Part shown: one piece after another, positions 18,548 through 55,643 of the stretch
Layout of the letters: every line of letters starts with the position of its first letter
Position numbering within the stretch: position 1 is the first letter of the stretch
The notes under the pieces: model-generated
The model's input: only the letters and a program-made list of their open reading frames with translations
Told to the model about the DNA's origin: nothing
Database searches by the model: none
NCBI GenBank assembly: GCA_001692895.1
Contig: KV748188.1
Coordinates: 1,612,001-1,676,000 of the forward strand
Reading direction: 5' to 3'
Length of the DNA stretch: 64,000 nucleotides
Source of the DNA: Cenococcum geophilum 1.58
Taxonomy: Eukaryota > Ascomycota > Dothideomycetes > Gloniales > Gloniaceae
Translations under genes and position numbers: made by a program

Positions 18548-18574
18548 GGGAAGACGCAGCCGGATTTAGAGGCT
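18548..18574 (+). repeat. Left terminal inverted repeat of the giant element
   Basis: Starts GGGAA and ends GAGGCT. It matches the complement of 55,617-55,643 at 19 of 27 positions by my count, and two of the mismatches are of RIP type (C/T, A/G). Confidence 0.65.
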
Positions 18575-19070
18575 CCTCCCCCCCGTTTTAGGAGGCTGTT
18601 TCTCCTCGCTTAGACCCATATCTATTGCTGCTTTTATAACATACTAAGCATGCCAAGGACGGCAGGGTCTTCCTCATTCACCCACTAAACCTAGAAGCTC
18701 CCCAAACGTCCCTCAGCGGCTAACGTTATTTAAAAAGCCATAGACATCCACCGCCTACCTTTATCCTCATCCTTCGCTAAAAGCACTACCCTCATATAAC
18801 GAAACCTCCCTTCTACACTACGCTCCTTTAACCCTTTTCCCACAGTAGCTACGTATACATTTTCCTTTGCTATTATATCGTTCACTTCTAATACTTAATT
18901 TCTAGGTTTCTACCTATGGGATTTTTTTGCCCTGTCCCGCTCTTAAGAACGCCAATCTCCCGTAAAGCCTTTTTCAGCGTTCCTATTAACAGCAGTCGCT
19001 CTTAAGCTAGCTTCTATATGTAAGTAACTAGCAGCTACTAAAGCACTAAGACACTACGCGTTTAACTACC
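18575..19070. other. Left subterminal region and captain 5' leader
   Basis: Contains a C-run and a small CTCCT...AGGAG hairpin near 18,575-18,597. The stretch 18,600-19,070 keeps more CA/TG than its surroundings. No gene; it presumably held the captain promoter. Confidence 0.5.
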
Positions 19071-21628
19071 ATGCCCTCTTAAAGTAAGAAATGGCGAAAT
19101 ATAAATCCAGCCTCTAGCTTAGACTCCAAACTAGGCAAGCCGTTTTATTCTAAGCTAGCTTTAGACTTAGATTTAAGCTCTAACTCTAAAGCTAGGGAAG
19201 ACGCCAATTCTAAAGGGGAATATTTATAGCAGAGGATTGCGTATTATAAGGACTAAGGAAGGGCGAAGTTAAAACGGAAGCCTTAGTCTACTTCTCTTAT
19301 TAAGCGTAAGTTCCGAAATTAGGAAAAGTTTATTTATATTTAAACTAAAATTCACCTTATAATACTAACAATTTATATTTAGGTTCTACCTAAAAGTTAA
19401 GTCTAACCCAACTAAGGCCCTTTATTAGTATATAGCCGACACGTTTAAAATATACCTCAAATGGCGCATAAAGAATTCTTAAATTAAGAAGGAAAGCACA
19501 ATCCAGTTATACTGGAGACGAATGCTATGCAAATTCATAGATGTGGTAGGCCATAGTATAAACAATAGCGTAGAACTTAATATACAAGATATAGGTAATC
19601 TTTAATTTTTTAAAAAAAAATCCTGGCTAATTTATTACAGTGGATCCTAACCTACTTAATGCCAATATATAAGCTAGACATATTAAAGAAAGAAAAGTAT
19701 ACAATATATATGCAAGACTTATATACAATTATTAATGCCTATTAGATAATGGACGTAAAGCCTTACTATAGTCGTTTTCAAGTATAAATAGGAGTAATCC
19801 TCCTCCTCTCCGGTACTACGGCAATAAGACCCCAAGCTCTTATTAAAAGTTTAAGCGCGAGAGGCTCCAATAAAGCACTTTTGTATAAATATATTATAAT
19901 CCTAAAAGTTCGTAATATAAAAAACTTTAATTAAACCACAACTGTTGCCCTCGTAAGTCTTATATATATTAAGAATTCTAGAGGCACAGGTAGACGGTAT
20001 ATAGCGACGCCGATTAAAGACGGCGCGAATGGCGCTAATAGACCTATAGTAAGAGGTTCATTTTCCGTCTTAAAAGCATCCTAGCTTTTTATATTCTATC
20101 CTATCTCATAAGCCTTACTATCGCGGATAATGCATTTTAACGCCATTATACTTCGCTAGAAGAGATTTTTAAACTTAAAATCCTAGTAAATAAAGAAAGT
20201 CTTAAAGTAAAGTTTAAGAAGCAGATAGAGGAACAACCCATCTTTTAAGATATTAAGATAATGGCTAGTTATAGGGGAGTGTCGGACACTAAAGCATTCC
20301 CTTACCAGAAATGCCGCGATTACTACGTATAGTTAGGCCGAGTAGCTAGGTTTAAATAATCGCTTAAACTTTACTAGCTGCGATAAGTGTCTAGAAGGAA
20401 ATTAAACAGTAAGTATCTAATTTAATATAAGTATATCTATTAACTAACCTTTCTAGCCACCCTTACTCTAGAAGAGTAAAATTAGACAATAGGTTATTAC
20501 GGCGATACCTACCAACGGTTTTATTTACCTAATTTAATTAAGCGCGATTTCTAGTTAATCTACTTTAGAACTCTATTATAGGACAACCTTATCTAATATG
20601 CCGCACGGATAGGGATTTTAAGGGATAAGTAGGCCCCTATAGGTCTAACTGACGAGCAGAAGCTTAAATTCCAGTTAAAACTTAATTAACACCCTAATAT
20701 TTTGCAGCTTTGCGAGAAATGAGAGCGATATAAGCAAAAGATCAGGAGCCAAGGATATCACTCTATTAACGCCGTAAAGGGAACGAAACTATATAACTGT
20801 TATAATAAAGCTAGACGTAAACTTTACAGTATTATAAACGTCCTACGCAAACAAAAAGAGGACCAGGTTATTCTCAATTTTTATAACGCCATCGACGATT
20901 ACAATATTAAAAGACAGCTCAGTGGTAGCGTTAGGACGGACATTCCTACCCGTTTAGCTATATAGTATAAATTTCGCGAATATACTGCCATTACCAAACT
21001 GCTGTCTTAGCCGCTAAATGAGCTTAAAGAAGGGCACGCTATAAAACTCCGTATAAAGTTTATCCGTAATCTTATTAAGTATTATAATTAATAAGAGAGC
21101 TAGCAGAATGGGATCCTAAGCAAGGCTATTAGACTTTAATTTAGGTCTAAAGTAGACCAAAGTATAGTAGGCGTAAAAAGAGGTATAAGTAATACTAATA
21201 CTAGTACCTATTAATAGGCAAAGCGGTAGAAAGAATATATTAGCTTAAACTCGCCTTTCTAAGAAAACCCGGATAAGACGTGGAGCGCGGTCCCGATTAA
21301 GGAAGAGGGTATTAAAATAATATAGCTGCCGCATCCTATAACGTTTACTAATCTTATTTACCTTATCTGCATTAGCAATAACCAACTCTTAACGCTAAGG
21401 CAGACCCGCCTATTTGCGAAGAAGGATATACTATAAAAGTATCTCAATAATTACATTATAGAAGGAGTGTTTAGGTAGAGGTTCCGCTATAAGCATCCTT
21501 ATTGTTTAAAGTGGATTAAAGGACTTAAGTATTTTAAAAATCACGCAGCCCTTATATATGGCGTATGGCATCCGATTAAAAGGCACTACTAGATAAGTTG
21601 CCTTACTTATATAAGAATCCTATACTGA
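19071..21628 (+). pseudogene. DUF3435 tyrosine recombinase (Starship captain) relic
   Basis: Reads from an intact ATG at 19,071 (context CTACCATGC) to a TGA at 21,626-21,628, about 850 codons, the usual size. At least one frame change lies between them. Recognisable stretches run from the N-terminus (QRIAYYKD, IKRKFRN) through the core-binding region (KKEKYTIYMQDLYTII near 19,690) and the catalytic region with TAIRPQAL, whose Arg near 19,826 would be the box-I arginine. Next are ARGSNKALLY and LVSLIYIKNSRGTGRRY. A C-terminal zinc-finger-like part follows (LICISNNQLLTLRQTRLFAKKD spaced over 21,365-21,430, then HPYCLKWIKGL). In Starships this enzyme excises and integrates the whole element. More than a dozen TAA/TAG codons make it dead. 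Confidence 0.85.
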
Positions 21629-22079
21629 CCCTCTAGTACTAATAGAAAGGCATATAACTGGTAAATTTAGAACTATACATTCCTTATATATGGCACCTTT
21701 TCCTAGTCATTTCTCGCTTATCTTATTATTCTTTACCACTTTTTATTTTATTTTAGTCTATTATCATCTAATCCTATTCTAGTATTTAGTAGAATAGATA
21801 TAATAACTAGGATTTTATAATTCGTCTGGGGGGTAAAGGGTAATAGGTAAAAGTAAAGGTAAGGGTAAGGTAAAGGATAAGATAAAGGGTGGGGTAAGGG
21901 GTAAGAGGTAAGGGGTAAGGGGTAAGGTAAGGGGAGGCTAATAGAAGATAGATAATATAGTTACTATACAATATCTAACGGATCGACTATAGACGAAATA
22001 TATATTTGAATTTCTTAGATCAACCTAAATAATATAATAACTTCCTACCTAAGCCAATCTCCTAAGCTATATATCTTTA
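21629..22079. other. Captain 3' flank with G-rich tract
   Basis: No gene seen. It contains the G-rich tract listed separately. Confidence 0.5.
21830..21935 (+). repeat. G-rich tract of GGTAAGGG-type units
   Basis: About 100 bp of irregular units such as GGTAAGGGG, GGTAAAGG and GGTAAGG. It resembles a telomere-like minisatellite but lacks a regular TTAGGG. The complementary C-rich form occurs near 53,893-53,930, close to the other end of the giant element. Confidence 0.75.
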
Positions 22080-23082
22080 CTTATATATAACGCTTATACC
22101 TTTTATAACGAAGTATATAAGGGTAATTAGGGTTAGATAGATAACTGCTGTCCTTAATATAATATATAAACTCGGCTCTATAACTAATATTATAACAAGT
22201 CCTAGTCGTGCAGAGGGTATTAAGACAGTTATTAATATTTTTGCTTTTATACTCAACCGCGATATACCTTACCTCGGCGGATTAAAGCAGTGATTCTGTT
22301 TATTATAGCTAAGATTAAACAGCTTAAAGTTTTAGTATAAAATTTTCCTCTATGTCCTTAGATGCGGTAATCGCTGTTTATATAATACTAATGGCGAAAT
22401 CGCTTATAACGTCCAGCTTTATAAAGTCCCTAAGTTTAATAAGCTCTTTAATATACTTAGCCGCTATTAAGGTAATTATATTATATAATGCTAAGTCGCC
22501 TATTAGGCTAAAGACATTCTTAATAATATTAGGAAACCCATTTACGGACTAGCTAGTTCCTAGAATATATTAGATTTTTATATTCACAAGCTCTTTTAGC
22601 TATAGTATATTATAGTAATCAGTAATTATATTAATATAGACGTGACAAAGTATAATATAGGCCGTCGTCGGCCGTATTATTGTGTCTTTATTATCGCCAC
22701 CGCTATTATCTAGTTTAGATAGCGATAAGGTATCGGCGTTGTCGATATTAGATCCTTACTCCTCCTTACCATTTTTATAGTCCCTCTTATATATAAATTA
22801 GATTATCCTCTTAACGGTGCCAGAATCGAACTCGTTAATATTTATAATATTAGTCGCCGCCTCCTACCTATTAGTTGGTTAGTTAGGGTTAATTCTACTA
22901 AATATTTAGTTAGCTTTTACCTAAAAGCCTCTATTATAGGCAGCTATAAGTATAGGAGATTAGGTGCATATAATCGCTTTATAGACTTTAAACTCTAGCC
23001 CCTAGTATATAAGTTTTAAGTTATTATATTTCTCGCTATTTATAAGCTGCGCTAAGCCGAACGGAATACTCTTAGATGGTAT
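22080..23082 (-). pseudogene. BTB/POZ-domain protein relic
   Basis: The minus frame is continuous apart from TAA/TAG codons. It starts at a former ATG (now ATA) at 23,082 followed by PSKSIPFGLAQL. The BTB domain reads ...LEFKVYKAIICT, then FDSGTVKRII with YKRDYK (typical FLYTGDY position), then HVYINIITDYYN and LKELVNIKI, a pattern of fungal BTB proteins. After it come LYNIITLIAAKYIKELI and a C-terminal CLNTLCTTRTCYN Cys-rich stretch near 22,200. BTB proteins mediate dimerisation or Cullin-3 binding. The role in the element is unknown, and the gene is inactivated by RIP. Confidence 0.72.
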
Positions 23083-23199
23083 ATTTCTCTAGTTTCAACT
23101 ACATCTTAAGCAATATTTAAGGGAGTAATTTGGTGTTAAATAGGACAATTAAGAATAAGAACTCTGCTTTATTAAACATAGCTCTAAAGCCTCTATATA

Positions 23200-24398
23200 T
23201 ACATTAAGAAGTCATTATTAGCTTTATCTAATCTGTGACGGATTTAGCTGGTTAGTTAGAGCTTTAAACGTCAGTCGCTTAACTAAGGACTAGTATAACT
23301 TCTAAAGTTCCAGGAAGGGTAAGTAGCGGGGTATACGGCAGCCGCAGCGCCTAAAAGTAGTTAGTGGTTATATAATAAAGGCTTAGTTAGAGGACGTATT
23401 TCTATAGCTTAGGTTAAGGCTCTACACTCCTCCAAGCCACATTAAGTAAAGTTAAATAGTATTATGTTCCTGCGTACCAGCCCGCCAATTACACTATTTT
23501 ACTTTTTTCTTAACTATATGCTAATATAGCCCGCACAATTACCTAGCTCATAAGATTAGCCATACTTATATAGTTTATAAAAATTAAGCATTGGGTTTTA
23601 AAAGACCACTTCTATATAGCCTTTCTATCTTTGTTACAAAAGAAGTATATTTATACTAAGTATTTTAGCAAGGCCGGGAGAAGAGAGCGTAGAGAGGGGG
23701 GTTTAATTTTAGTAGGGGTTATAAGTATAGGCGAACGTAAAGGTATAAGGGCTTTAGGCTTAGTTATAGAATAATAGCAAATCGCTAGACCATTATATAA
23801 GCCGTATAAGATCTTATATTCTTTAAACGAAATCAAGCAATTTAAGCAGCGTAGTTCCTCTATATAAACTTAACTATTCCCTATACGGAAGTACTAAAGC
23901 TATCGCAAGCATTAGGGTAGTAAAGTACGCCAATCTAACCAAAAAGGGAGGCGCAGTAGTCCAGTTAGCATTATTAAGTTCCTTTACCTCTTTATCTAAT
24001 TGTTTTAAAGCTTCCTTTCCACCTTCTATAAACTATATATCGCCGGAAAAGCAATTAGACCTTATTAATGTTCCATTATAATTAATTTCCGCTATAACTA
24101 ATCTGCTACTACGGTAATGTGGCACGACCGAAGTTATTTAAATAATTATATTATATATCGGACCTACAGCCCGGCGAATATCGGGTTAAGTATATAGAAT
24201 GCCAATAATTTTATAAATCTTTAAGATATTAGGGACCTGCTACTTATAATATAGGTAATTACTTACTTTTGCTTTATGTAAATTGCCTTCTTCCTATCCT
24301 ATAAAGGTAATATCTCGTTTTTTATCCTCCTTGGAAATCTCTTCTCCTAACTTTAGAACCTAATAGGCTGACTTTTAGCTTCTATTAGACGTATCCAT
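23200..24398 (-). pseudogene. Unrecognised gene relic with one membrane-like segment
   Basis: An intact ATG at 24,398 starts a minus frame whose only interruptions are RIP-type stops. It can be followed for about 400 codons: MDTSNRS, then YKIIGILYT, PHYRSSRLVIAEINYNGTLI, KEALKQLDKEVKELNN and a hydrophobic segment AYFTTLMLAIALVLPY near 23,930. I recognise no family. The coherence of the frame and the strict TAA/TAG nature of its stops argue that it was a real cargo gene. Confidence 0.5.
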
Positions 24399-24959
24399 CA
24401 CGACAATAGGTACCTAAGAGTAGCGATTAGATTACTAAAGATATAGAAGGGGCGGGTTATATGCTGCTTGCCTTAATAGGTAAGTTATTGCCGGTCTTTA
24501 GAGGTCGTTAAAGGCCTTTAGAGGTCTATAGAGGTCTTAGAGGCCTATTTATATATTAATTAGTAAAACCCTAGCAAAGGCAGTACATGCGTATTAGCAA
24601 GGTTAAATTGCGTAGCAGTTCTTACTAGAGCAACGAGGAAGTATATAGATTTAAGTTAGGCTGTAAACGGCATAGAATGTATAAAGGTAGGCCTAAATGC
24701 GACTTACTAGACGGCATAAATATAAAAAGACGCCTATTCCAGCCTTTCCATAGGTAGTAAAAGATCGGTAAAGGGTAAGACTAAGTATGCTTATAGAACA
24801 TAGGAGGCTAACCTATTATAAGTAGAGAAGCCTAGCTCGGCCGGCTATAAGTATAATTACGTAGCATAGGGGGAGGTGTAAATTGGTACGCTATAATTAT
24901 GCGTAGAAATGCAAAAACGTTATATAATAGCCTTTGCTATACTATTTACGGAAGGAACA
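24399..24959. other. Intergenic with short GGTCTTTAGA-type repeats
   Basis: Nothing coding recognised. About 24,495-24,545 holds four or five imperfect units of the GAGGTCTATA/GAGGTCTTTA type. Confidence 0.5.
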
Positions 24960-25883
24960 GTTACTAATAGAGAGATATATTCTTCTTTAAATCAATCCCC
25001 AAAGCCTTAATCCTGGCGACTATATCCTCCCTATATATGTCCTTATACACATCCCTATCTTTATCCCAGTCCTCTTCCATACTATACCTTATATTGCGAT
25101 TTCTATTATCCTATATCTTACACTCTATCTATTACAGGATTTCTTTTCTACCATTTATCTTCTTAACTGCACCCAAAAATGTAAAAACTTTGTAATAATT
25201 TCCTTAGTAAATAAATTCCCTAAAGAAGGTTTTTTAACCGTGGTATTGGTAACGGGCTAAAGTATAGCGGACAGCTAGCAGCACTAATAAGGCGGGGGTA
25301 TAGTAGACTTTAATTCTAAAAATATAGAGAGTAAAAAGAAAGTAAAATAGGAGAAATTAATGCTATTTAAAACGAGAATTAATAATCTAGTAGCCGAATA
25401 GCAGGTTTTCCTAGATATGTAATATACACTACGGATATTCCACACGGTTAAACCATATCTTAAAGCCTAGAGCACGTAAACCCTCCTTTACGTTGCTCTT
25501 TTCTAAGTCGCTAGGAGACCCCTCTAGCAACTTTAACTGTTTAACCTTTAATTTTGCCATATTTACATCTTCCACAATTTACTCCCCGCCTTATATTAGC
25601 CCTACTGCTTCTAATAGAGCATATAACTGCTTTTCAATCCTACCAATGCAAAAATGTATTAGGACTTAAGCGTACTTAGGTTTAATAGGTAGATTATAGC
25701 GGAAACCGATCCATTTTAAAACCTATAAAGCTTAAGATTTATTAGAAATTACCCAGATTTATAACCTACTTTAATAAATTTAAACTGTTCTTTTCCCTAA
25801 GCGTTAGAAAAGACTTTAGCTATTTTGTTATAGCCAGTTTCAGACGTTTTAAAGAGCATATAATACTCTTCTATTCTAGGCAT
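24960..25883 (-). pseudogene. Unrecognised cargo gene relic, about 300 codons
   Basis: Starts at an intact ATG at 25,883 (MPRIEEYYMLFKTSE) and stays readable to about 24,966. Segments include KIAKVFSNAQGKEQFKFIKVGYKSG, interrupted by RIP-type stops, then LEGSPSDLEKSNVKEGLRAL, and a strikingly intact C-terminus from 25,080 (MEEDWDKDRDVYKDIYRED then IVARIKALGIDLKKNI). The product would be soluble with a charged helical end. I recognise no family. Confidence 0.5.
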
Positions 25884-27318
25884 ATTTAATAAGGATAGGT
25901 ATTTTCTCAGTGGCAGTATAATATAAGAGGTCTAGGTTAGTTAGTAAACGTTTTAGCGGGTAGTAAATTAAGGTACACTTTATCCTTACTCCTAAGGGCT
26001 TAAACAGTCTAACTTAAAAAGAAAAAAGCGTTAAATATAGTACTTATTAGTTCTAAAAGTATAGCTATATAATTATAGATAGGAGTAGGGGCAGCGATTA
26101 ATAAAGATCGTTAAGAGGTTATAGTGCGTGCCGTATGCTATTCATAGGCCTTATTATAGCTAGGTAAAAAGTCTAGGCCGCTAAATATATTAAAGGGCAG
26201 GAAGGGCACTATAAATGCATCCACGCGGGATAAGATGCTAAGCGTTTAATGCATATAGCGGCCCGCACAGCGGCCATTATGCATATTAATCTTATTTTAG
26301 CGGTGTATTTAAGGCATTAAAAACATTACCACTAAATCCTTGCTAATAAAAATAGTAAAGCCTAAGCGTTAGGGTGTTAAATGTTTAAGGCTCGTTTAAA
26401 ATGCCAAGCATTTTAATATCCGTGCACATTAGCAAATTAGTATACCTAGCGCGCGAAATGCAAATAGGCCAACAAGCCTACCCCTCTAAACTGCCCTACT
26501 ACTCAGACAATTTTACTCGCAGCGAGCTTATAAAATTGGATATAGCAATATAAAAAATAAGTAAGCACAAAACTCTAATAAAGGATTACCGGAATAGGAT
26601 ATATATAGTATTTATAATCAACAAGTTATACGCAGACCTTATATAATTTAGCCTAGAGGAGGCAATACAGAAGATCTAGAAGACTACGCTAACTAAAACT
26701 ACATCTGCTATCGCCTTAACGGACACCACGGAAAGTAATAAAGCGCGTAAGCTTGCGAAAATAGTATGTTTAATATAGTTTACTTTAGTATAGTGACTCT
26801 AGCAGCTAACGCAAATAAGGAATTTAAGTTAAAGATACTAGAAATACTACTAAAGTTAAGAGTCAGAGCAGTTAATATAAACTCTTTGCGTATAGGCCCA
26901 ACAGTCTATTTTATAGGATGACGCATTTTAATGCAATATCTAAACGATTTAGTAGTATATACGTTAGCTTTTGGCCCTTATTAGGACTCCTAGGTCCCGC
27001 TTAGTTATACTATCCCGCATTTAGAGAGTAGATAGGGCTATTACTAGGCTAGTTTATAATAGGTAAAATAGAACGGAAGTAGAGGTAGCGTTAGTACAAT
27101 AATTACGGTGCCGATTATTAGCTAAGCTTAAACTACTAGTTCTACTTAATAAGGGATATTATTAAACTATTATTATACCGCATTAAAAACCTAAAACTAG
27201 GGTATATAACAATATAAGAGTTTTAGAAGAAATTCACTAATACCTATAAGCAGAACTTATAGCAACCACACTATTAAGGGACTTATTATATACCTATTAC
27301 GCGGAGCTATAGCTTATC
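25884..27318. other. Stretch without a recognised gene; less mutated patch at 26.4 kb
   Basis: Both strands give partial frames. A plus frame from ATG 26,401 (MPSILISVHISKLVYL) is open for about 45 codons in a patch (26,395-26,520) that keeps many CA pairs. The rest is strongly RIP-mutated and I cannot assign it. Confidence 0.4.
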
Positions 27319-27571
27319 TATTTACTATCGCTAATCGCCAATAGTATATTACCACCAATTTGGTCTCCATACACCTATTACGCCTTATTATAGCCTATTT
27401 ATTCGCTGTTGCCAATTCCTAGTAGCGTATTACCGTCGATTTGGTCTCCGTACATCCATTACGCCTTATTATAGCTTATCTATTCGCTGTTTCTAATTGC
27501 CGGTAGCGTATTACCGTTGATTTAGTCTCCATATACCTATTACGCCTTATTATAGCTTATCTATTCGCTAT
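27319..27571. repeat. 81-bp tandem repeat, three copies
   Basis: The word ATTCGCT recurs at 27,401, 27,482 and 27,563, a period of exactly 81 bp (27 codons). On the minus strand each unit reads about GNSEQISYNKA...YGDQIDGN apart from RIP-type stops. It is probably a repeat inside the coding region of the neighbouring minus-strand relic. Confidence 0.8.
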
Positions 27572-27599
27572 TACCACTAATATCTATAGAACTAGAGCC

Positions 27600-29150
27600 G
27601 CTAGGGTTTCCATTTAAACACGCTGTGCTATTTATATTTAGGTATCTTTACGCAAGGTTGCCGCGGGTATTAAAAGGGGTAAGGAAATCTTATAATAAGC
27701 GTTCTTAACCAAGGCGTGGTATAAGGGATTCGCCCGCCGGCTTAGAGGCTTAAGGATATTGTTTAATAAATCGCAAAGAAGATATTCTATGGCCTATAAT
27801 AAATTAAAGATACTACTATTTAAAAGTATAACTACTCTTATATATCTGCATGCTATTTATCAAGGCCGTTATTAGTAGCTAAGGAGGATATAATATTATT
27901 AGATCTGTGTGTTAGTAATTATACGCTAATATAGGATCCCTAAGTTTAGCAACTTCTATATAGGGGCGTTTATAAGGGGAGGAAATTCACTTTTTCGGGC
28001 TCGGCTAGGGCGGGTTAGTAGTGCTAAGATGTATTGGTTTAAGAGAAAGCATCTAACCAGAATAAAGCTCTTAACACTATCCCATCCAAATTAAACATTT
28101 TTACGTAATTTTAAATATTATAAAATAAGACCAGTGCCGTAAAGCTATAAGAAAATCGTTAATATTAGGTAAATTTAATCTCCGGTAGGCATTATAGGTA
28201 AAGGCTAAGAGAACTAATAGCCCTACCCCTTTAAGCCTTTACATAATATAAAGCTTAATTCTATATCCAATAGCTAAAGCCGCTTTAGTAACGTTATAAC
28301 ATCCTATACTTCTTATAAATAATATAATATAACTAACTCCCTTTATAGAAGCGGCTTAACTTTTAACTAAACTTTTAATCCTTAACGCACCTATAGACTT
28401 TAGTTGCCATTTCTTAAAAGAATCCGCAAGCGTCTATTAGCTAAGAAGTTTTTAAAAAATAGCGTTATTTAATAAATCGCCGTTAGTAGTAATAAGATCC
28501 TTAATAAGGGGATATTCGTTTAACCACTTTAGTTCGCCAACAATAGCCTTTAGATCTTTCCCCATAGATATATTAACAAATATCTTAATCTTAGAGAGGT
28601 TTGCCAATAATGCGTTAAGTAGGTTCGCATATCTAGGTAAAAGGGGAGGTAGAAAAGCAACCTCATTCCCTAAAGAAGGCTGGATACTCCCTAAAGAAGG
28701 CTAAATAACATTATCCTCATTCCCCAAAAAAGGCTAGACATCCTTACTCTCTAGAGAAGGCTTAATAACATCCTCATTCCCTAGAGAAGGCTAGACACTC
28801 CCTAGAGAAGACTAAACAGCATTATCCTTATTTCCTAGAAAAGGCTAGATAATATCCTAATTCCCTAAAGAAGGCTAGACATCCTTACTCCCTAAAGGAG
28901 CGTAGAGCAAATTATAGTAGCCGCGTTTATTCTCTAAAAGAGGCGGTAAATATTAAAAGGTATTAATAGGAAGCTTTTAAAGCCTTTAAATAGTATATAT
29001 AATATTAGGGAGATAAGGTTAAAGCTACTTATTAAAAGCATTACGGATAAGATCTAAGGCTACTATAATGCTAAAGTCTATAATAGTGGGTTATAAGTTA
29101 TATAATTTGTATTAAAATAAAAGAGTAGTTAAGTACAGTTCCCCTCCGCT
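27600..29150 (-). pseudogene. Unrecognised gene relic with internal peptide repeats
   Basis: Minus frame readable for about 500 codons, probably continuing into the 81-bp repeat. The N-terminal part contains VALDLIRNAFNK and YLPPLLENKRGYYNLLYAPLG. A run of about nine 9-residue repeats of the QPSLGNKDV type follows (28,890-28,660). After these are LPRYANLLNALLANLSKIKI, MGKDLKAIVGELKWLNEYPL and IALAIGYRIKLYIM-like helices. Interruptions are TAA/TAG only. The two repeat families within one apparent protein are unusual, and no family is recognised. Confidence 0.5.
28660..28890. repeat. 27-bp tandem repeat (9-residue peptide repeat)
   Basis: Units of the CCCTAAAGAAGGCTAGACAT type, with spacing that is mostly 27 bp or shorter multiples of three. 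They vary chiefly by C/T and G/A changes. On the minus strand they encode QPSLG(N/S)-type units. Confidence 0.75.
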
Positions 29151-29194
29151 CTTAATTCCCTAGTAGGTCGCTAGCGCCCCCAAAACTTAGAAGA

Positions 29195-29265
29195 GCCTTA
29201 CGCCAATTATATTACTTTAATTAAGTATCGCGTACTCGATTAAAGTAATATAATTAGCGTAAGGC
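29195..29265. repeat. 71-bp near-perfect palindrome
   Basis: Arms of about 27 bp (GCCTTACGC...CTTTAAT) are followed by a centre that is itself nearly self-complementary. Only a few positions break symmetry, several of them RIP-type. It could form a cruciform. It may be a small foldback/MITE-like insertion or a replication or recombination site. Confidence 0.8.
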
Positions 29266-29779
29266 CCTTATTAGAGCTGCGCTAATATAATAGCAATTAT
29301 TAACCTTACTTTTGCTTATAATGCGCAGTTAAAAATTAAACCTCTCTTTTAGCTAAGATAGGAGGCGATATAAGTCGCAAACTTAATTAGGCGTGTAATA
29401 TGAAATATTTAGTAATATAGCTTATTCTGTCGCAGAAGGCTGTAAGCCTTAATACTATTAGAGGATTCCTTTTCTAACTAACGCGTAGGATGCACAATTC
29501 GTAATAATTTCTTCCTTAAGGAGCTAAAGAGTAAGACGCCTTAATAGATCTAAGGATACTATTTAAAGGAAAGGATATAGAAATACCTAATATATAGAGC
29601 TAATTTCCGCCCCGTTACACTAGGGATATATAATTACCTTTATCGCCTACTCTACCGGTTGCCTTAACACGTCTTCTATATCTTTTATTTATTACTACCC
29701 TACTTTACTATTTTTACCGCTCCTTTTAAACCATTCCCTAGCTTATCCTATTTCCGCTAACCATTTACAGCCACTCTTT

Positions 29780-39140: not shown

Positions 39141-39149
39141 GCTAGCAAA

Positions 39150-44399: not shown

Positions 44400-44730
44400 T
44401 AAGAATTAAGGTTAGATAGGTAGATGGTATATTAGCGGCGTCTTAAACAAGTCTAGAATTTACAAGTATACTACTAGTGCGAATGCGGAGGTGGTTAGCT
44501 ATATAAGCATAGTAGCAGCTTATATAACGGTAATTAAGGTAATCTAGTTCTAGATATCGCCACTATAAGCAGGGAGGGCGGCCGACCTATACCGGCCACA
44601 CCCTTTATACGCTCAAACTGTGATAGAGAAGTACTCTTTTATACTATAGCAAATCACATACCTTTAAAAATAGCGGCTTACTAGATATGTAAGGTGGAGG
44701 TGCCAAGACTTTTATTTATAAGCGGGTTTA
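44400..44730 (-). repeat. Long inverted repeat, right arm
   Basis: Complement of 40,061-40,411. With it, this arm encloses the HET relic and the 70-bp array in a 4.67-kb module. Confidence 0.85.
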
Positions 44731-44917
44731 GGCCTTTTAGGTCTAGTAACATTAGACCGTTCTTAGGGGCTAGAACTAAAAAAGCATTTAAAAATATTTT
44801 TTTAGTATTAAGATTTTTATTAAGTGATACTAAACCTAAGACAAAGTAAAGCGCGGCGTGAAGAAATTCCGAAGAGAATATATTAATTAGCCTAAAGAGG
44901 TAAAAAGCTAACTAATA

Positions 44918-45250
44918 AGAGGGCTTAAAGATTTAACGAATAAGAGGGCTTAAAGATTTAACGAATAAGAGGGCTTAAAGATTTAATAAATAAGAGGGCT
45001 TAAAGATCTAACAAGTAGGGGGCTTAAATATTTAATAAATAAGAGGGCTTAAAGATTTAACAGATAAGAGGGCTTAAAGATTTAATAGATAAGAGGGCTT
45101 AAAGATTTAACAAATAAGAGGGCTTAAAGATTTAACAGATAAGAGGGCTTAAAAATTTGACAGATAAGAGGGCTCAAAAATTTAACTAATAAGAGGGCTC
45201 AAATATTTGGCCAATAAGAGGGTAAAAGATTTAGCCAATAAGAGGGTAAG
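44918..45250. repeat. 24-bp tandem repeat (about 14 units)
   Basis: Unit AATAAGAGGGCTTAAAGATT plus TAAC, period 24 bp. On the plus strand it reads NKRGLKDL in each unit, so it may be an eight-residue peptide repeat of a lost protein. Confidence 0.88.
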
Positions 45251-45319
45251 ACGAGCGTAACCTAAATTTTTCTTAAGCGGTACTAAAACTCCTTTTAGAA
45301 CTAACGTTCCTCTAGGTAT

Positions 45320-45760
45320 AGCTTTTGCTCCCCTACAGGGGCCAACAGCCACATTTTCCTCTCCTGTACGGGAACTAATACCCTACGGCTTCCGTTCTCT
45401 GTTCCTAGATCTATAGATACTATTAGCTATATCTTCCACTCCCCTACGGAACAAATCCCCTATAAATTCCGTTCCTATATATAGTAACCGTATCTTCTAC
45501 TACCCTATAAGAACTATACCCTATAGCTCCTGCTCCTATACGGCTTTTACTCCCCTATAAGAACTAATAGCGATTTCTTTTACTCCCCTATAGAAACTAA
45601 TCTCCTATAGCTTATAGTTCTCTATAGGGGTTAATACCCGCTTTCTCCGTCGCCTTATAGCTTTTAATTCCTTACAGAAACTAACGCTTATATCTTTTAC
45701 TCCCCTATAGGAACTAATGCCCTATAACTTTTATTCTCCTATTCCCAGATCTATAAGCAA
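45320..45760. repeat. CCCCTA-containing minisatellite, right block
   Basis: Irregular units such as ACTCCCCTATAGGAACTAA and TACTCCCCTATAAGAACTA, in the same strand sense as 39,600-39,960. Confidence 0.7.
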
Positions 45761-45899
45761 TTCGCCCGCGCCACTGCCTACCATATAGGTCTTATTGCTA
45801 TAAGAGTAAAAAAGTAATTTCAAGAAAGCAATAAGTAATAATGCCACCAGCTATAAGATCTATAAGACATATTTAATACTCTGTATATATAAGCAAATC

Positions 45900-48180
45900 T
45901 ATATATATAAGTTTAAATTCTTAACTAATCTAGCGCCTTTAAAATCACTCTTAAAATCTTAGTTTAACATAAAAGCCTTACCCAAATGCTTATATATAAG
46001 TTTCTCCCCTTTACTTTTAGCTAAGCCGTAACTAATCCGTATAGTGTTCTTAATCTAATATAGTATATTAGCACTAGCCTCTAAACTCTCTCTTAAACAT
46101 TACCTTACCTATCTTCCGTTTAATTAATAGTCCAAAAGCCACTCTATATCCTTTTTAGAGATATTAGTAGTAGCATCGGCTTGCTTTAGAAAGGTCTTCT
46201 ATACCTACTCTCTTACTAGTCTCTTTAGCTCGTTATATCTAAGTATAAGATATATTCTGCTCTATATAGCTACATTAAATATAGTAATCCTATTTATTGT
46301 AAGAAATATAATACCTTAGAAATACTCTATCTATCACAGGAAGACAGATACTAGGCTATTACATCAGACATTATTTAAAGTTCTTTCTATAAAAAAGACA
46401 TCGGCCTTATCCAAAAGAAGGACAGCGCTCTAGCGGTAAATGTTTTCAACTATTAGAGCCAGGTTTTATTCTAAATAGGCTAGATCTATATTAAGGTCTC
46501 CCATACAAGCCTTCTTATAATTAAACTAGTATATAAATACACTTATAAAGGGGAACAAACCATATAGAGGGGTCTCCTCTAAGATTTGGCAAGTGCTTTA
46601 GCTATCAATGTCTTTCCCACCCTAGGTGGGCCACTAAAACGGTCAGCCTTTAAAACAGCTAATACCTTACCAGAAAACTTACTGTAGCAAGAAAACTAGG
46701 CCTTTCCCCTTCCCTTTAATTATATCATTAAACTTTAATTTCCCGGACCTAGACTAGTAGCTCTTTATAAGTCCTTAAAGCACTATTTTCTTATCCTCCT
46801 TAATTACGAGTAACTTAAATACCAAGGCATTCCATTTAATGTCCTTAATATTAGCAACAGCAAATTCACCTATTAGTGCTTGTATTAATATATATAATTC
46901 GCTAGCTCTAGAAAAAGAGTATAGAAAGCCTAACCCCATTTTTTATCTGCCAAACTAAAGGCTAGGGCTGTTAGTAGACAGATTAGGTACTTATTATCTC
47001 CTATCTCCTTAGAAACTAAACCTTAATTCTTTACGTCGCCTTACCAATTAGTCCCTTAATTAATCACACTTATTCCGTACGCATCTATAGCAATTAGCTG
47101 CTTGCCATAGTTAGGATTCTAACAATAAAATACTATCGCGTCCACTATAATACGGCCGCTTATAGAAAATCTCAACGGGCCATCTTTAGTCCAAAAAAAC
47201 GCGATCCCTTTATATTCACGGTGGTTAATGCCTCTTAAAAACACGAACTTCCGGCCATTGCTAATAAGATCCTACTTTATCTCGGCTTGTCTCTTATAAC
47301 ACTCTAGCGGAAATACCTTAAGAGATGTAATTTTTATAATTAAACGGAATTCTGGAATAGAGAGGGTAGTTTTTACCTCGCTAAACGCCTTCCCATTATA
47401 GCCAAAATAGTAACAGTTAAGTTTAAAGCTCTTTTTGCTAAAAAGTAAGGTTTTAAAGTTGCCTAAATTATATATAAGGCATCTTAGTTAATCCAAGCCT
47501 TCGCAAATCATAAGGACGTGCGTATTTGGTTTAAATAAGGCCTAAAGGAGATTGAAATTAATTTCGCCATAGTTTAGAAGCGGCAGGAGACTATTAGTTA
47601 TAGGCGCGAAATGGTCTTTAAGGAATCTTAGTAACCCCTAAAGGTACCTAGCGCTAATTAAGTCGGGAGAAAGACTCTCCTAGTATATTTTTAACTAGGG
47701 TAGGAAATTAAACATAAGGTTTATAGGGATTTAGAAGTTAAATTAGAATAAGCTATATTTATAAAAAGGTCTACTTACTATAGGCTTGTCTTCTCAAAGG
47801 GAGATAGCTTATATACCGCTTAGCACCACCTATAAGGCGTCTCTCACTTCTCTTAAATTTATACTTAGGTACGTACTATAGTCTTTCTTATCCTTTTCTG
47901 GCTTAAAGTCAGCATCTAAGTTAATATATTTAAAGGCACCTAAGAGATAGACTAAATTTCTTCTAAAGGACATAAATATACTAATTATATATATTACACT
48001 CACTTAACGTATCTAGCGAAGTCTCTATAGTCTTATACTGGCAGTTTTGTTTGTCCTAGCTATAATAAATACTATATTAGCATATTTCTAAGTATATTTT
48101 AGGGATTTCGCGAGTATACATCTTATTTAACACCTTAACTTTAACCTTAGAACCTCTCATTTTGGGTATCTCTTTAACCC
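45900..48180 (-). pseudogene. AAA+ ATPase relic (fungal, N-terminal extension plus AAA core)
   Basis: Starts around an intact ATG near 48,172 (MRGSKVKVKVLNKMYTREIP), possibly further up where a Pro-rich stretch near 48,200 reads PSPPPPPSLPPP. The N-terminal half is poorly preserved. The AAA core begins with LVIKEDKKIVL and KSYQSRSGKLKFNDIIKGKG near 46,730. Walker A survives as SGPPRVGKTLIAKALAKS near 46,615. Walker B reads AVLLLDKADVFF near 46,410 (originally LLLDEADVF). It continues with NSLVSVFLQQIEYFQGIIFL and TINRI (sensor 1), then SRIYLILRYNEL (arginine-finger region). The C-terminal NGRQVRQ...EAS and KSDFKGA near 45,970 close the family pattern. Such proteins are large fungal AAA ATPases of unknown substrate. 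Inactive. Confidence 0.83.
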
Positions 48181-49271
48181 CTAAACTCGTAGGGGGAGGT
48201 AAAGAAGGTGGAGGAGGTGGAGAAGGTTAGGCCGCTTAGACTATCTTTAATACGGCTATAAGCATTTTAACTATAAGATGCTGCGCTAACTACCTATAAT
48301 GCAGATGCGTTTAGCTTAGGCTACTAGGGGGGATATTTATACTATTATAAGGCAGTAAAGGCGCTAGCGTAACAGGCTTAGATATAACTGGTATTATTAC
48401 TCTATAAAGCTTTAATAACGTAATACTAATCTAAAGTATAAGGTTGGAGTGAGGAGCTAAGTATAAATAGTATTATTTCTTTAAAGGATCCGCCTTCTTT
48501 TATACCCGTTAATAGGACCTAAGTTACTACTATGCCGCGAATATTCACTGCACCGCTTACTTACCCTAATCGACCTTAGATAGCGCTAAACTATATATCT
48601 TTAATAGCGTTCCGACGTATTAGAGAGTTTAACTAAGTTAAGCTATAGGGTATATACTGGCTCTTATTATAGAATAAGCCTATAATTTATATAGCTACGG
48701 GGGGTATTGCAAAGGATTGCGCAAATGATCCCTATAAGCTAGGTGGACATTATAGATCCGTAATAGTATGCCTGCTATTTCTCTAAGGGGCGACATCTAT
48801 TTAGCGGAGGCTTCGGACTAATAAAGAATTAATCTTACATTAACTATATAAATATTAGTATAGCTTACATTAGAATAAGTCCTAATTAAGGGATAGAAAG
48901 AAGAAAGATATAACAAGTCTGATAATATGCAGAGTGCGGTATATTAGTAGGTTAAGATATTACAACCTATAAAATAAACTTAAGGTAATTAGCTAACCAA
49001 GTTTAGTAATCTCACCCCTAATTACCCCCTAGTTGCCTCCTAACTTCCCCCTAACTTCCCCCCAACTGCTATTAACTACTCCTTAAATACCCACTAACTG
49101 CCCTACAACTATTATAAACTTTCTATTAACTTATTATTTAACTACTATAACATCCAGCCGCCTCTTAATCCATTTATTTTAGCGCGCCAACCTTACCTCT
49201 TCGCCAATCTTAAGACATAGAGTTGCCTTATATCGTACTACAGGCGAAAGAAAAGGATTCCTTTTCCTACT
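48181..49271. other. Intergenic with C-rich low-complexity stretch
   Basis: Contains the Pro-rich upstream extension of the AAA frame, and at 49,005-49,130 repeats of the CTAACTTCCCC and TAACTGCC types. No separate gene recognised. Confidence 0.45.
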
Positions 49272-50120
49272 AAGATGGCTATAATAAAGTAACTAACTTA
49301 GAGCTTAAAACTCTTCTTAAGCAGAGCCAAGAAATAGTTATTTTACTTAAAGCTAAGCTAGATAAGCGCCAGATTGTGGCAAAGCCCTAGTCGCTCGGCG
49401 TTATTAAGTACAGCAAAAAACTCCAAAAGAGTGTCACAAATCTTAGGATCTTAGAATGGCTGGATAGTAAAGCGGCTAAACTTGCTATTACGGCTGCTAG
49501 GATTCTAAAGACGAAATAGACAACTTATAAGTTAAATATCTATTAAACGTTCCTTAGCGATATCCTTTATTACTACGGTTAGGGGTTAGTCTTACTATAT
49601 ACTATAAGCCTCAGCAAGCAAAGAGTAACCTCTCTAAATTCTTAAGATTGGATTAGGCTTATATAGTATCTTAAAAGTAACTAAGCCACCTTTAAATACC
49701 CTATCTTGGACTCACTAGCGGTGGAACATCATATACCTTATAGGAATGGTAAGTTATATAATCTTTAATATAAATATCTCGCTTATCCCGTAAAAGAGGT
49801 CTATAAATTAGATCCTTTAGTTACGCCCTTCTAAAAACACCTGTTTCTAAAAGATATAGGTTTAAAATAAGAGTTAGCTTAAAGCAATTATACTTATTAA
49901 TCAGACGTTTATTCTCTAAATACTAATTAGCTACGCTAAGATACGGTCTAGGATTTACAAAATCCTTTAGCTAGTTAGACTCCGCAAGCTAAGGTTATAA
50001 TTAATCTAGTATAGAAAGAAGGAAGTAGTATAGATTTTCCCTCCCTATATTAATAAGGCCGAATATTAATCTAAAATAAGATATATTACTAGGCTCTTTA
50101 TCCATAGCCGTAATTTAAAC
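49272..50120 (+). pseudogene. Unrecognised gene relic with helical N-terminus
   Basis: Plus frame from an intact ATG at 49,272 (MAIIKQLT): SLKLLLKQSQEIVILLKAKL (coiled-coil-like), VTNLRILEWLDSKAAKLAIT, AARILKTKQTTYKLNI, DILYYYGQGLVLLYTI, YPILDSLAVEHHIPYRNGKL. Interruptions are RIP-type stops. The N-terminal heptads suggest a coiled coil; the rest matches nothing I know. Confidence 0.48.
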
Positions 50121-51789
50121 TCGCTTAGCGAATTATAGGGAGATTATAAACCTTAAGTTTATAGTGCTTCTTGCTTTCCTATAACAGTATTAGGATAGCC
50201 ATTTAAAACTAGTATACCCTTAGGGTGGAGTTCTATTACTATCTATTAATATTATATTAGAGCCGACTCTTAGGTTAAGCGCAAAAATTAAACTCTTTCT
50301 TCAATTATATAAAGCGTTAATTTAATTCAACCTTACCTTCTATAGGCGAAAATAGCGCACCATAGGACTACTAAATAGCCTACAGCTCTTACTAGGCCTT
50401 ATAATAAGGATAATAAAGCCAGTAGGTTCCTTGGGGCCTATAACTACATTTCTTATTATATTACTAAAGACCCTAACAGCCCCCCCCCCCACCGTGTATT
50501 TTTACCAAGATTACTTAAACTAATAGGTCCACTAACTTTAGAGATATGCCAGTTATTTCCGGACCTATTTTAATAGGCTCTTTATACTAAATAGTATTTA
50601 GCGAAATATATCTTATGCTGTTTTAAATTTTACCTACTAGCTTTAAAGCTCTTTTTTTAAGTTTCTAATTATTGTCTACAATATCATTAACGGGAACCCC
50701 GCCGTTTATTATCCTAAAGAGCTCTTAATATATACCGTCTAAGCCCAGGTAATAATGGTAACTAAATAGTTATAGGTTAAAGATAAAAGCAAGGGCTAAT
50801 AGAGAGAGCTACCGACTTCGGAGAGATAAGGATTATATTAGGATTGGAATAATAGAAAATATAAATATATCGTCTAAGGAACGCGCTAAAGAACTACAGC
50901 GTATATTATTACTAGCTATACAATACACATAGATAAAGTAGGGTTATTTTACCTCAATAGTTAAATACTTTAGATCTATAATAAGTATAGTAGAGTAAGC
51001 TGCAAAGCGGATAGCGTTAAGATTAAAGGTTAAAGTTAGGAGAAACGTTACATCCTTAACGGGCTATACCCTATACAGTGCGCGAAATAGTGACGCGCCT
51101 AGCGCACAAAAAGAGAATATAAATTTAAGATAGCTAAGGCTAGTCTTAGGCGTTAATGCCCAACTCTATAACGGGGCTTAGCCTTAAGCTTTAGTTAGTA
51201 TTATTACGTATATATAACGCAAGGGTCTACTACCTAACCGCGAAAATTATATAGCTGGTAAAGGAAGCTATATAGATAAACACGCTAATATATAGCTAAT
51301 GCAAGTCAACGCGGACACCTTACCCTTTTTATTATATAATGCTTTAAAGGATTATATAAACCGTGGCCTATTCTTATTTATAGACCCAATATCTATACTT
51401 AATCTCTTAACCTATTAATAGTACTAAAGGTTATACCGAATATACTTAGTTAGATAATACAGCATAATTCTACAATTTGTGGATTCTAAATAAATAGACT
51501 AAAGTTATAGGCGAAGCAGGTTATTCTTTAAAATTTCACATTATTTAAATTAAGCTTACGGCTTTAGGCGATATTATAATTATATATAGTATAGCCGGCA
51601 GATATCTAGTTAAATCACTTATAAACACTTATAACACTTCATTAGTATATATACCTAAATCCCTCTACTTACTAGCACTCTATATAGTTTATAAGGGCTT
51701 AACTTTCTTAAATTGGAAATTATAGGACGTTGTAGGAAATGCGCTATAAATAGAATAAGCTAGAAGTAGAACCTAAAGCTAGAAATAAA
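50121..51789. other. Stretch without an assigned gene
   Basis: Plus-strand frames remain partly readable (for example LLSINIILEPTLRLSAKIKL near 50,240 and VHQLQRYASYFRTYFNRLFI near 50,530). They may belong to the preceding relic or another gene. A run of twelve C lies at 50,480-50,491. Confidence 0.35.
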
Positions 51790-53200
51790 ACTTTAAGCCA
51801 AAAAGAATAGCACTATTACTACCAATTCTTCCACCTAGTAGGCTACCCCTATTTCTTCTACATAATAGGCTAAGCCTTTAATTTTAAATAGTAATACCCC
51901 TATAGTAATTTAAGACTTTTTATTAAAAAGCTATCTTTAATCTAGTCCCATAAAAGATTTTGTTTCCCTTTTAAGTTAGTAAGCAGCATGTCTTCCTCTT
52001 TAGTAAATTTTATTCTAAACTTTAGCCCTTAAGGCTTTAGCTTCTAGGGCTGCTTAACCAGGTTAAAAGGTAAAGGAAATTATTGAGGAAGGATATCTAG
52101 TATATACAACCCGTCTTTCTAGCGCCTAAAAACTACTCGGATTAAAATTTCTTCCAAATTAGCATTTAAGGCGGCTCCCAGTATTGCTTTATTAGAGTTA
52201 GAGCCAAAGGCGGCGCTTAGCAGCAGTTTTTGGGTACGGAGGCGATTATATATAGGGGATACAACCCGCTTATAATAATTGCTGGTAAGCGTAGTGCTTT
52301 AGTTAGACGCATACGTGGATAAAATTAAAGGGGAATGGTGAGACCGCTAGAAATAATACTTTATAGCACGCTTTGCCTTTAATTAACTAGTAATAGGGGT
52401 TGGCAATTCTCGTTGCCCTATACACCCGCGGGCCTCGTTATCCTTATTACTACTGCTATTATTACTATCCCCAGAGTCGTTATTATCCGTATTATTACTA
52501 TCATTACTTCCGTTACCGTAGTTCCCGGCCTTACCTTTATCTATAACGTTCTCACTATCCTTATTATCGCTTTCTTTAGTTAAGCCGTTTATAAAATCGT
52601 CCAGAATATAATTACAACTATTATTAGTCCTATATTCTAATAGTCTAGTATTATAAGGAGATATATAGTACTAGGGGGAGGGGCTAGTAGGCCGCGTAGT
52701 AGAGACCACTCGCTCCTTAATACCGTTACGGTTATTAAGGCTAAGGGTAGGAGAGCTAGAAGGCGTGGTCCTCTGGGAAGTAGGTGACCTTTATTACTTC
52801 CTAGGTTATATACTCTCGCTACTCTTACTAATAGAAGTATTAGAGATATAATTAATGCTACCTAGCTAATTAAGCTAATTAGACCTCCGCTTCTTTAACT
52901 TTTTAGCTCCTAAAGACTTTTAACCAGCAGCTACTAATATCCTAAGCTTTTGCCTAAACTACAGAGCAGTTCTAATGCGACGCCCCTTAGCTAAATTATC
53001 CATTTAATTGCCGTCTAGCGTTAAGGGTGTAGTATAATTATATATAGGTACACATACCTTCTCTTCTAGCGCTTCTAACAAAGGTAGCTCTTTATTATCT
53101 TTATCGCCCTTACTACTACTATTATTCCTATTATCTACTAATTATTAAACAAGCCATTATAAATTAAAAGGGGAAGCGTATACCTAATCCATAAGGTATC
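51790..53200 (-). pseudogene. SANT/Myb-like DNA-binding protein relic
   Basis: Minus frame with RIP-type stops. It can be followed from about 53,200 (DNRNSSSKGDKDNKELPLL) through an intact ATG at 53,003 (MDNLAKGRRIRTAL). Next is a long low-complexity middle rich in Ser, Asn, Pro and Asp (SPTSQRTTPSSSPTLSLNN; DDSNNTDNNDSGDSNNSSS). The C-terminal domain near 52,030-51,880 reads KFRIKFTKEEDMLLTNLKG and then NLLWDQIKDSFLIKSLKLLQ, followed by YYYLKLK. This has the spacing of a SANT/Myb repeat (TxEEDxLLxxLK...LxWDxIxxxFPxRSxxxLQxxYxxKLK). It is the last gene before the right end and points inwards. Some Starships are described with a MYB/SANT gene in this position. Probably a DNA-binding regulator, now dead. 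Confidence 0.75.
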
Positions 53201-55616
53201 AGTTAATCATCGGCTTCATTAGCTTTGTTATCAGCGTTACTAACTTTATTACCCTTAGTTTCCGAGTCCAGATCGGCTGTATCGTCTTTAATAACTATTA
53301 GATTTACTGCTAGTCGTTAAAACTACATATTTAGAACTGCTAGGGAAAGAGGGAAAGTGGTAGGGTAATTGCTAGGATAATTACCTTAATTACTTCTTCT
53401 AGAGACTTAACTGTCATTTCCATCCCTATAGAAATCTTCTTCATTATCCTCATTATCCTCGTCATCCTTATAATACTTATTATTAGCTTTCTTGTAATTA
53501 TATATAGGGTCTATAGGCGCTTTATTAGACGGAATATCTAAATTAAGGCCCTAGGTGGAATAACATGCCATTAAGTACCCAAGCTTATAATGCTTTTTAA
53601 CTTTTTAGGGGGAAAAGAGGTACTCCCCTGCTCCTCCTTTTAGGCTTACTGCTCGCGCTTTTTTTAGGGGCCGTAATTATATAGTACTAAGATAAAGCTA
53701 TTAATTTTCTAGGGGAACTAGTGTAGAAATTATTCTTATTAAGCGAAATTTTAGGAGGAATACAAAATAAAGACTAAGGTGGTGCCAACGTTGTTATTAT
53801 TAGAGTTACCATTATTTTATAGCTTTTAAAAGCTTTAAGGGGGAATTAAAGGTCTTTTTAAGTACATGTTAGTCCTCCCTTTACCGCTAGCACTTACCTA
53901 TTACCCCTTACCCTTTACCCCTTACCTAGGTTTCTTATTAAATTAAAGCATTTAATATATGCGCCTCCGGCATAAACTAGGGTTAATTACCGTTTATAGG
54001 GTATAAAGGTTTGTAAGGGCTTGAATTCCTAGCACCTAATTAACACCCTTAGCAAATTGCGATTAAACCGTATCCGCCCGTCTAAGCTAGCATATTTAGC
54101 TCTAATACAGCTATCGCATCTAGCCCCTTATTAGGAGGTTAGTGGCTTAAGTTCTCTACCCTTATTCCTTAGTAAAGGGCAGTGCTAATATATCTATTTA
54201 CTTCCCAATAATGCCGATCCAGCTAATCTTCTACGCCGCTCGTATTAATAGGGTATAAAGCCCCGCTTATGCGTGCGCGTTACGAGCTATCTATAACGAA
54301 AGAAGGCAGTGTTATTATTAGTAGTAGGCAGGGTTCTCTAATGCTAACCACCTAGTAACGGATACGCCTACCGCTCGCACGGTAATTATATACAGATGCA
54401 TAAATGCGCTAGGTAAAGGACTATATAGGGTACTATATAAGGTACTATATAATACTCGCCCTCCTAACGTAGCTAGCTAGTATTAGAGATTCCTTCACAG
54501 TTATACTATAGTGCCGTAGATCCATTATGCGCCTAAAAGCTATAATCTTCTAATTTTAATCCGGGTGGTTCCCACTATAGCCCCATAGCTTAGAAGGCCG
54601 GATTATTAATCTTTTACCGCTCTACCGCTAAGCAGTTAGGCAGAGCTAATAGCCCCTTAGCCCTAAACTAGCAGATTAAACGGTATCTCTAAAACATCTA
54701 TAGTAATATAACTATACCATCAGGTAGGTATACATAGCCACCTAGGCGACACTCTATATAATATCTGTTTAAATAATGCCTAACACAGCCCCATATAGGG
54801 TAGTCACTTAAATTGGCGACGTCTAGCTGCTTTTCCGCTGGGTAGCCTAGTAGGTATACTAGCCGTAATATAGGTAACTTCAGCTATTAGTAAACGCTAA
54901 AGTAGGTTATCTAACTAATAGCATATCCTAGGTAAGAAAACAGCGCATAAGTTAGCTAAAACGAGTGCAATATAAGCTCGCTTAAGCCCTTAAGGGGGCG
55001 GATGCGGCATACCTATCCCTCCCTACCTTAGAAGGAGATATACGGCAGAGTTAAATAAGACAATAGTGCTAACGCGGCTAGTAATTGCGGAATTTCCCTA
55101 ACCCCCTTTTTATGGGACGGTTGTAGACTAGCGCCATCTAGAAGGCAAAAGGAGAGAGGGTGTGTATAAGAGAGAGGACAAAATTATAAGGATATAGACG
55201 CACTTAGCGGATAGAGGCGGCGCTAAAAGAGCTTAACAAAAATTAAAGCCATCAGCTCTAGAGGCGGGAATTAGGAGAGGAGGCTAAGACCATTTATACA
55301 TCACCGTAAAATAGAGACTCGCCCATTAAAAAGGCCGCAGTTAACTATATTAATTGTTAGTCTAAGATATAGGGGAATAAAGTAATAAGCGGGCTAAACT
55401 TGTATACGCATTAGCGCTAAAGGGACGGCAGAAATGCCTTAATATAACTATGCCAAGGACTAGTAGTAAGAAGAGGAGGAGGCGCAGCATTAGAAGAAAG
55501 GAAAGATGGAGGATAAGAGGAAAAGTAGTAAGAGAAATGGCCTTTTATAGTTGAGGTCAAGGGGCAGTCTTAGCTTGGCCGGGGTCAACAAGCGAGGGCG
55601 CCTTACCCGTAAAGGA
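53201..55616. other. Right subterminal region of the giant element
   Basis: No gene recognised over about 2.4 kb. It contains a C-rich tract, short repeats GGTACTATATAA near 54,430, and a purine-rich stretch at 55,470-55,540. The last about 120 bp before the end keep more CA/TG pairs than the rest, like the left subterminal region. Confidence 0.45.
53893..53930 (-). repeat. C-rich tract, complement of the GGTAAGGG tract
   Basis: TTACCCCTTACCCTTTACCC-type units. Read on the minus strand it is the same GGTAAGGGG/GGTAAAGGG motif as at 21,830-21,935, so the two form an inverted pair near opposite ends of the element. Confidence 0.7.
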
Positions 55617-55643
55617 AGCCTCCATTTCCTGATGCAGTTTCCC
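55617..55643 (-). repeat. Right terminal inverted repeat of the giant element
   Basis: Plus strand starts AGCCTC and ends TTTCCC. Its complement aligns without gaps to 18,548-18,574. Confidence 0.65.

Follow-up and report, generated by a model that had tools for sequence, protein, structure and literature searches.

The locus considered here raises the question of whether a long AT-rich insert with hardly any reading frames, lodged in a retrotransposon, can be a single giant transposon of the Starship type, complete but silenced by RIP. All positions given below refer to the window, i.e., the whole stretch of 64,000 nucleotides that was analyzed; C-numbers designate contigs and L-numbers loci of the same genome, which comprises 177 Mb in 162 contigs. 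At about 10 kb, gene-like DNA (GC about 0.48) gives way to AT-rich DNA, and just one stop-to-stop ORF of at least 100 aa lies between 18.5 and 55.6 kb, in agreement with the expectation of the earlier note that ordinary gene prediction would return almost nothing here. That such RIP fossils have been overlooked across surveys is plausible. The reading favored here, with a probability of about 0.93, is that the insert represents a complete, RIP-dead Starship nested in a Ty3/Gypsy copy, as had been proposed from the letters of the window; it is supported by the precise boundaries shared with sister copies, the uninterrupted copies of the target, the inward-facing captain at the left end, the cargo, and the RIP signature (Table 1).

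Table 1. Features of the insert and of its host retrotransposon (positions in the window).
Feature	Positions	Strand	Basis or remark
Host Ty3/Gypsy, left part	17254..18521	+	Weak gag (17,254-17,568) and protease
Target core, left junction	18522..18529	+	TTATTACT, same as in the uninterrupted Gypsy site
Starship element (favored reading)	18530..55659	+	37,130 bp in total; 31,758 bp after subtraction of the nested insertion
Captain pseudogene, DUF3435 tyrosine recombinase	19071..21589	+	Pfam and tblastn
Variable segment	23499..32041		Present in some sisters, absent or replaced in others; no Pfam match
Fungal protein kinase (PF17667) pseudogene, cargo	37603..38847	+	5.4e-81, profile 2-387 of 387
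Nested insertion	39945..45316		5,372 bp at a TA
HET-domain remnant in the nested insertion	41538..41879	-	Two overlapping minus-strand frames
DUF7025 with sub-threshold AAA, cargo	46552..47586	-	DUF7025 47,296-47,586 (9.4e-19); AAA 46,552-46,638 (0.0087)
Right terminus ATAACT	55654..55659	+	Repeats the target core
Host Ty3/Gypsy, right part	55660..56236	+	RT-like start by eye; no Pfam match

The surroundings of the insert contain further elements and genes. To the left of the Gypsy copy, two direct repeats of 160 nt (9,619-9,778 and 16,176-16,335; 93% identical, 6.6 kb apart) are probably the LTRs of another retroelement. To the right of the Gypsy fragment, an RVT_1 reverse transcriptase domain (59,855-60,490, minus strand, 1.9e-7) belongs to another element in the opposite orientation. 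Farther to the left, an intact frame of 935 aa occupies 2,484-5,291 of the plus strand; its nearest proteins possess kinase and WD40-type domains, metagenome proteins being the best matches (91%), followed by those of Pezizomycotina; the single Cenococcum geophilum protein among the matches listed (P0063) reached 51%.

The boundaries of the insert can be read from other copies in the same genome. For the left region, 19 further loci were retrieved: 12 of them begin no more than 3 bases from 18,522 and carry unrelated flanks, three (L010, L016, and L018) run on into Gypsy sequence, and four are partial; on the right, all 18 fetched copies stop in ATAACT at the base matching 55,659 of the window. 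The sister copies thereby confirm a bounded insert of about 37 kb (37,130 bp), although its limits, formerly placed at 18,548 and 55,643, are now set at 18,530 and 55,659. At the same time, the uninterrupted Gypsy copies sought as a check were found: six out of six (L047-L052), which are paralogous copies in the same genome and not orthologous sites in another isolate, join the left flank of the window directly to its right flank. The match to the left flank ends in them at 18,529 (18,527 in L052), and that to the right flank begins at 55,654 (55,659 in L052). The uninterrupted site contains TTATTACT once; the left junction retains it and the right junction features the element's own ATAACT; the direct repeat at the window copy is imperfect.

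The description of the host as one Gypsy element split into two parts of the same orientation holds as regards the interruption itself and the protease just upstream of the insert (RVP_2; E = 0.017 in the window, below the cut-off, and 1.1e-5 in this Gypsy's copy on C12), which is accompanied by weak gag matches (Pfam 0.013-0.08). The downstream part is less clear-cut: its plus-strand frame, judged by eye, reads like the opening part of a reverse transcriptase of the Ty3/Gypsy type, but the Pfam scan of this part returned zero matches, including reverse transcriptase. The imperfect terminal inverted repeats formerly ascribed to the insert do not rise above the level of shuffled sequence, since 11 of 26 positions pair (1,569 of 5,000 shuffles were equally good) and local alignment gives a score of 21 vs. 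a shuffle maximum of 28; in a diverged copy on C33, 12 of 26 positions pair (721 of 5,000 shuffles). Terminal inverted repeats are often listed for Starships, being common but not universal.

A search of the whole genome with degenerate end patterns, allowing up to 3 mismatches, revealed 51 left and 50 right ends of the element, against 0 and 0 for the reversed patterns serving as controls. For 37 of the left ends, a right end follows on the proper side and strand no more than 120 kb away; the arrangements with wrong order or strand, a control for this figure, yielded 0, 3, and 1 pairs. The bounded copies span 27,104-111,054 bp (median 42,899), 30 of them being no longer than 55 kb, and sum to 1.74 Mb, or 0.98% of the genome, with later insertions counted in. 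A DNA search of the same genome with 17,500-24,500 of the window likewise gave at least 32 matches (27 scored of 949 candidates). The element is a member of a high-copy family, a circumstance that had escaped the first reading of the locus, and so many insertion sites in one genome would imply past movement. In two of the copies (C7:2,418,496 and C22:2,274,305), the sequence to the right of the element is common to both and that to the left is not, possibly as a result of recombination between copies.

The target was characterized in the 37 of 51 left junctions that were read. The counts along the 8-base core are T25/A8/C4, T32/A5, A37, T37, A22/T14/C1, A33/C4, C37, and T37, i.e., the four lettered positions of xxATxxCT (A, T, C, and T) never vary, and insertion accordingly appears to take place at a TTATWACT-like core. 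A different motif, TTAC(N7)A, is said to be a target of Starships; tried as a rule for this family, it fits the window copy, yet just 6 of 18 reconstructed sites, and was rejected. The string ‘ttac’ is absent from the searched portions of PMC9594970, PMC11623301, and PMC12257634.

The junctions recur at the same places. Four sites shared at the left junction (window/C87/C26; C13b/C33/C5/C106; C97/C41b; C16/C25) harbor 11 of the 37 copies, the window being assigned to its site through flank and empty-site comparison owing to a one-base gap. The nucleotide of the Gypsy that is interrupted in the window carries five right junctions (window, C17, C26, C87, and C101; control 0), of which C87 and C26 were recovered by the left-junction pattern as well, and the same site is found uninterrupted 337 times in the genome (control 0). 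Elsewhere in the same Gypsy, a copy is inserted 34 bases downstream (C3) and another one upstream (C12); the copy on C111 probably also lies upstream.

It can be argued that the shortness of the core and the repeat content of the genome suffice to produce these same-site hits and that the family has no additional preference among targets. The core is short indeed, the host repeat is abundant, with 337 sites uninterrupted, and the gathering of 11 of 37 left junctions in four shared sites is to some degree expected in repeat-rich DNA, which explains part of the recurrence. Still, a rough Poisson estimate, for which the motif density was taken from the AT-rich part of this window only and the site was picked after the fact, predicts 0.165 hits among the 49 other right ends vs. 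the 4 seen (P about 3e-5); as a full account, the core is a serious contender that we nevertheless incline against. Considerably less probable is the idea that the insertions in the Gypsy site are not independent and represent segmental duplications of one nested locus. The window, C87, and C26 do have both flanks in common, and the right junction is common to C101 and C17 as well. However, the shared left flank ends inside the repeat, at 17,648 (L010) and 18,072 (L016), and the shared right flank ends at 56,236 in C87, C26, and C101; moreover, the window, L010, L016, and L018 are not mutually closest, their transversion distances amounting to 0.29-0.76% vs. the all-pair median of 0.41%. In addition, two pattern positions set the right end of C17 apart from the other four, and the diverged C33 element (72% identical), inserted at a different site, has its left flank in common with C13b, C5, and C106.

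The interior of the proposed Starship was studied with six-frame profile scans. With X in place of every stop, DUF3435 (PF11917) was matched in one plus-strand frame of 18,522-22,400 (1.1e-28; 100.8 bits vs. a cut-off of 25.8 bits) and in none of the other five frames of this stretch. A protein search with the captain stretch returned two proteins, including P0122, a DUF3435 protein of 783 aa from Zopfia rhizophila CBS 207.26 (54% identity over 76% of the query); it is the nearest named protein to the captain. In tblastn, P0122 gave four collinear plus-strand blocks (19,113-19,334, 19,381-19,590, 19,629-19,997, and 20,051-21,589) with intron-sized gaps between them. These results superseded a weak match (2.7e-5) obtained by local tblastn with DUF3435 pieces from C49. 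Thus, the frame at 19.1-21.6 kb does encode the claimed DUF3435 recombinase, and this captain heads the gene order from the left end and points inward on the plus strand; its first codon probably lies at 19,071, 541 bases inside that end. The captain is dead in the copies sampled: every one of the 18 sister loci has 18-27 stops among the 325 codons of the captain stretch 20,027-21,001 (the window has 19), and none of the aligned codons is missing in the sister copies.

Behind the captain, the claimed cargo of non-transposon genes is represented by the kinase pseudogene (17 stops in 415 codons) and the DUF7025/AAA span (18 stops in 345 codons), matched by the PF17667 and DUF7025 profiles, respectively (Table 1). 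Accessory genes common in Starships include DUF3723, ferric reductase, and patatin-like genes, according to passages of PMC12134995; none of these three turned up in the scans covering 18,522-54,650, and neither they nor NLR genes gave a match at E 0.1 in the six frames of 22,300-54,650. At the same threshold, six-frame Pfam searches gave zero matches in 22,300-36,900 (14.6 kb, within scans that ran to 37,050) and in 49,700-54,650. RIP reduces the sensitivity of domain scans and may conceal further cargo, which is named only partly here.

The HET domain is confined to the nested insertion. The latter is missing from all six sister copies fetched across the point (L030-L035), where 39,940-39,944 is joined directly to 45,316-45,321, and is marked by inverted arms (40,096-40,189 and 44,602-44,695) and a 70-bp tandem array. 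A related sequence (C5:657,777-664,687) is located inside the paired copy on C5, and a stretch resembling the right end of the nested insertion (44,853-45,316) occurs on both sides there in the same orientation. The variable segment is bridged by joins of 23,531-32,042 in L021 and 23,831-32,624/32,631 in L025/L026; the match to the window stops at 23,498 in L018, L022, L023, and L024, and C45 and C97 match the window on to about 30.5-30.9 kb. Tandem arrays with a period of 17 bp are present inside the element at 32,242-32,661 and 39,580-39,908, one of them near the joins of the shorter sisters. The segments at 38.3-39.9 and 45.3-48.5 kb keep the same order in six copies.

Two other explanations fare poorly in the light of this organization. 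A chance pile of ordinary nested transposons mimicking one element might be suspected from the tandem arrays and from 39,945-45,316, the one part that, as a passenger with its own boundaries, does behave as the separate transposon that had been thought of as a refutation, yet it is highly improbable, because one and the same pair of termini was found 50 and 51 times over, with 37 correct pairings, and the two segments just mentioned keep their order in the six copies. No more credible is a Crypton-like DUF3435 element lacking true cargo and loaded with later insertions: DUF3435 has long been annotated as Crypton-like (see passages of PMC9594970), but 37.1 kb separates the ends, and the kinase and DUF7025 segments occupy the same place in sister copies.

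The damage to the Starship bears the marks of RIP, as had been asserted. The TpA/ApT and (CpA+TpG)/(ApC+GpT) indices of the insert are 1.58 and 0.56, compared with 0.76 and 1.25 in intact genes, and transitions make up 10,860 of the 11,214 base differences between the window and the sister loci, the commonest class being before a 3' A (or after a T on the other strand). Over the 171 pairs among 19 copies, transitions have a median of 9.8% and transversions one of 0.41%; of the 56 two-state transversion sites, 39 are singletons. Such a transition-rich, transversion-poor pattern would fit a burst of multiplication followed by RIP of each copy.

A relative that is little mutated resides at C33:1,227,566-1,304,378 (L073, L074), with the left end at 1,227,566 (3 mismatches) and the right end at 1,304,344, 76.8 kb in all. 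Its first 3.1 kb display a GC content of 0.483 and RIP indices of 0.89 and 0.99, near those of intact genes; over 1.9 kb, they share 72% identity with the window. Its captain blocks are 70-80% identical to P0122; the frame changes between them may be introns or damage. The element shares its target site with the C13b, C5, and C106 copies. A divergence too great for RIP to act on would account for its unmutated state. A more ambitious view is that, in a fungus proficient in RIP, a Starship lineage truly turned into a high-copy transposon, several sub-families of which repeatedly hit the same retrotransposon nucleotides, and that the C33 element may evade the RIP threshold and still be mobile; it is put forward tentatively, at a little below even odds.

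The following chain of events can be envisaged for the family. The captain at the left end, presumably once functional, would excise the element and integrate it at a short core resembling TTATWACT and common to the target and the right end, so the target core would remain on the left and the element core on the right, as might be expected of a recombinase acting on a short shared core. One lineage would have multiplied in this way to some 50 traceable insertions (37 of them two-ended), its cargo partly shared and partly exchanged, and RIP would then have mutated the copies, in the order suggested by the substitution pattern. The window copy would have landed in the pol of a Ty3/Gypsy, at a site apparently hit at least five times by the family.

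Starships are usually found singly, by comparison of isolates. With at least 37 bounded copies in one genome, the ends, the target core, and the exchange of cargo become measurable within one assembly, where uninterrupted copies of the host repeats serve as empty sites. The multiplication of a giant transposon in a repeat-mutating genome also becomes testable, along with a possible preference of Starships for retrotransposons and a possible escape of sub-families from RIP through divergence. End patterns tolerant of RIP, searched for at the DNA level, recovered what gene prediction would miss.

Death by RIP alone is not new, since RIP-mutated or ‘derelict’ Starships are already in print; the unusual part is the copy number together with the recurrence at the same sites. 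In excerpts of the respective papers, such elements include Pi-rho of Spiromastix (PMC11623301), the GtA elements of Gaeumannomyces (PMC11905480, PMC12134995), and Frontier and the Fusarium copy of Limos (PMC12257634). The element described here was inactivated by RIP like all of these; unlike them, known from one or few copies as far as the excerpts go, it has dozens of sisters, so its ends and core are readable from one genome. According to the portion consulted of PMC12506042, ToxTA (ToxhAT) lies inside the Starship Sanctuary, is the smaller of the two, and has a TA duplication; the passenger of the present element, 39,945-45,316, recalls it in this arrangement and, unlike ToxTA, contains a HET-domain remnant.

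Overall, the element resembles Starships generally in the captain as an inward-facing first gene, the empty sites, the short direct repeat, the HET domain in the cargo, the size range, and insertion in AT-rich DNA and other transposons. Many Starships insert into such targets with no clear pattern, as stated in a passage of PMC12134995 citing another paper. Figures given in parts of PMC12289983 comprise 143 Starships from 2,899 genomes in a systematic survey and, for Verticillium, 1-3 Starships per strain in 33 of 56 strains; in the literature searched for high-copy Starships, which lay beyond the main survey papers, a comparable copy number was not reported. It is in this respect that the family departs from Starships generally: 37 bounded copies of it reside in one genome.
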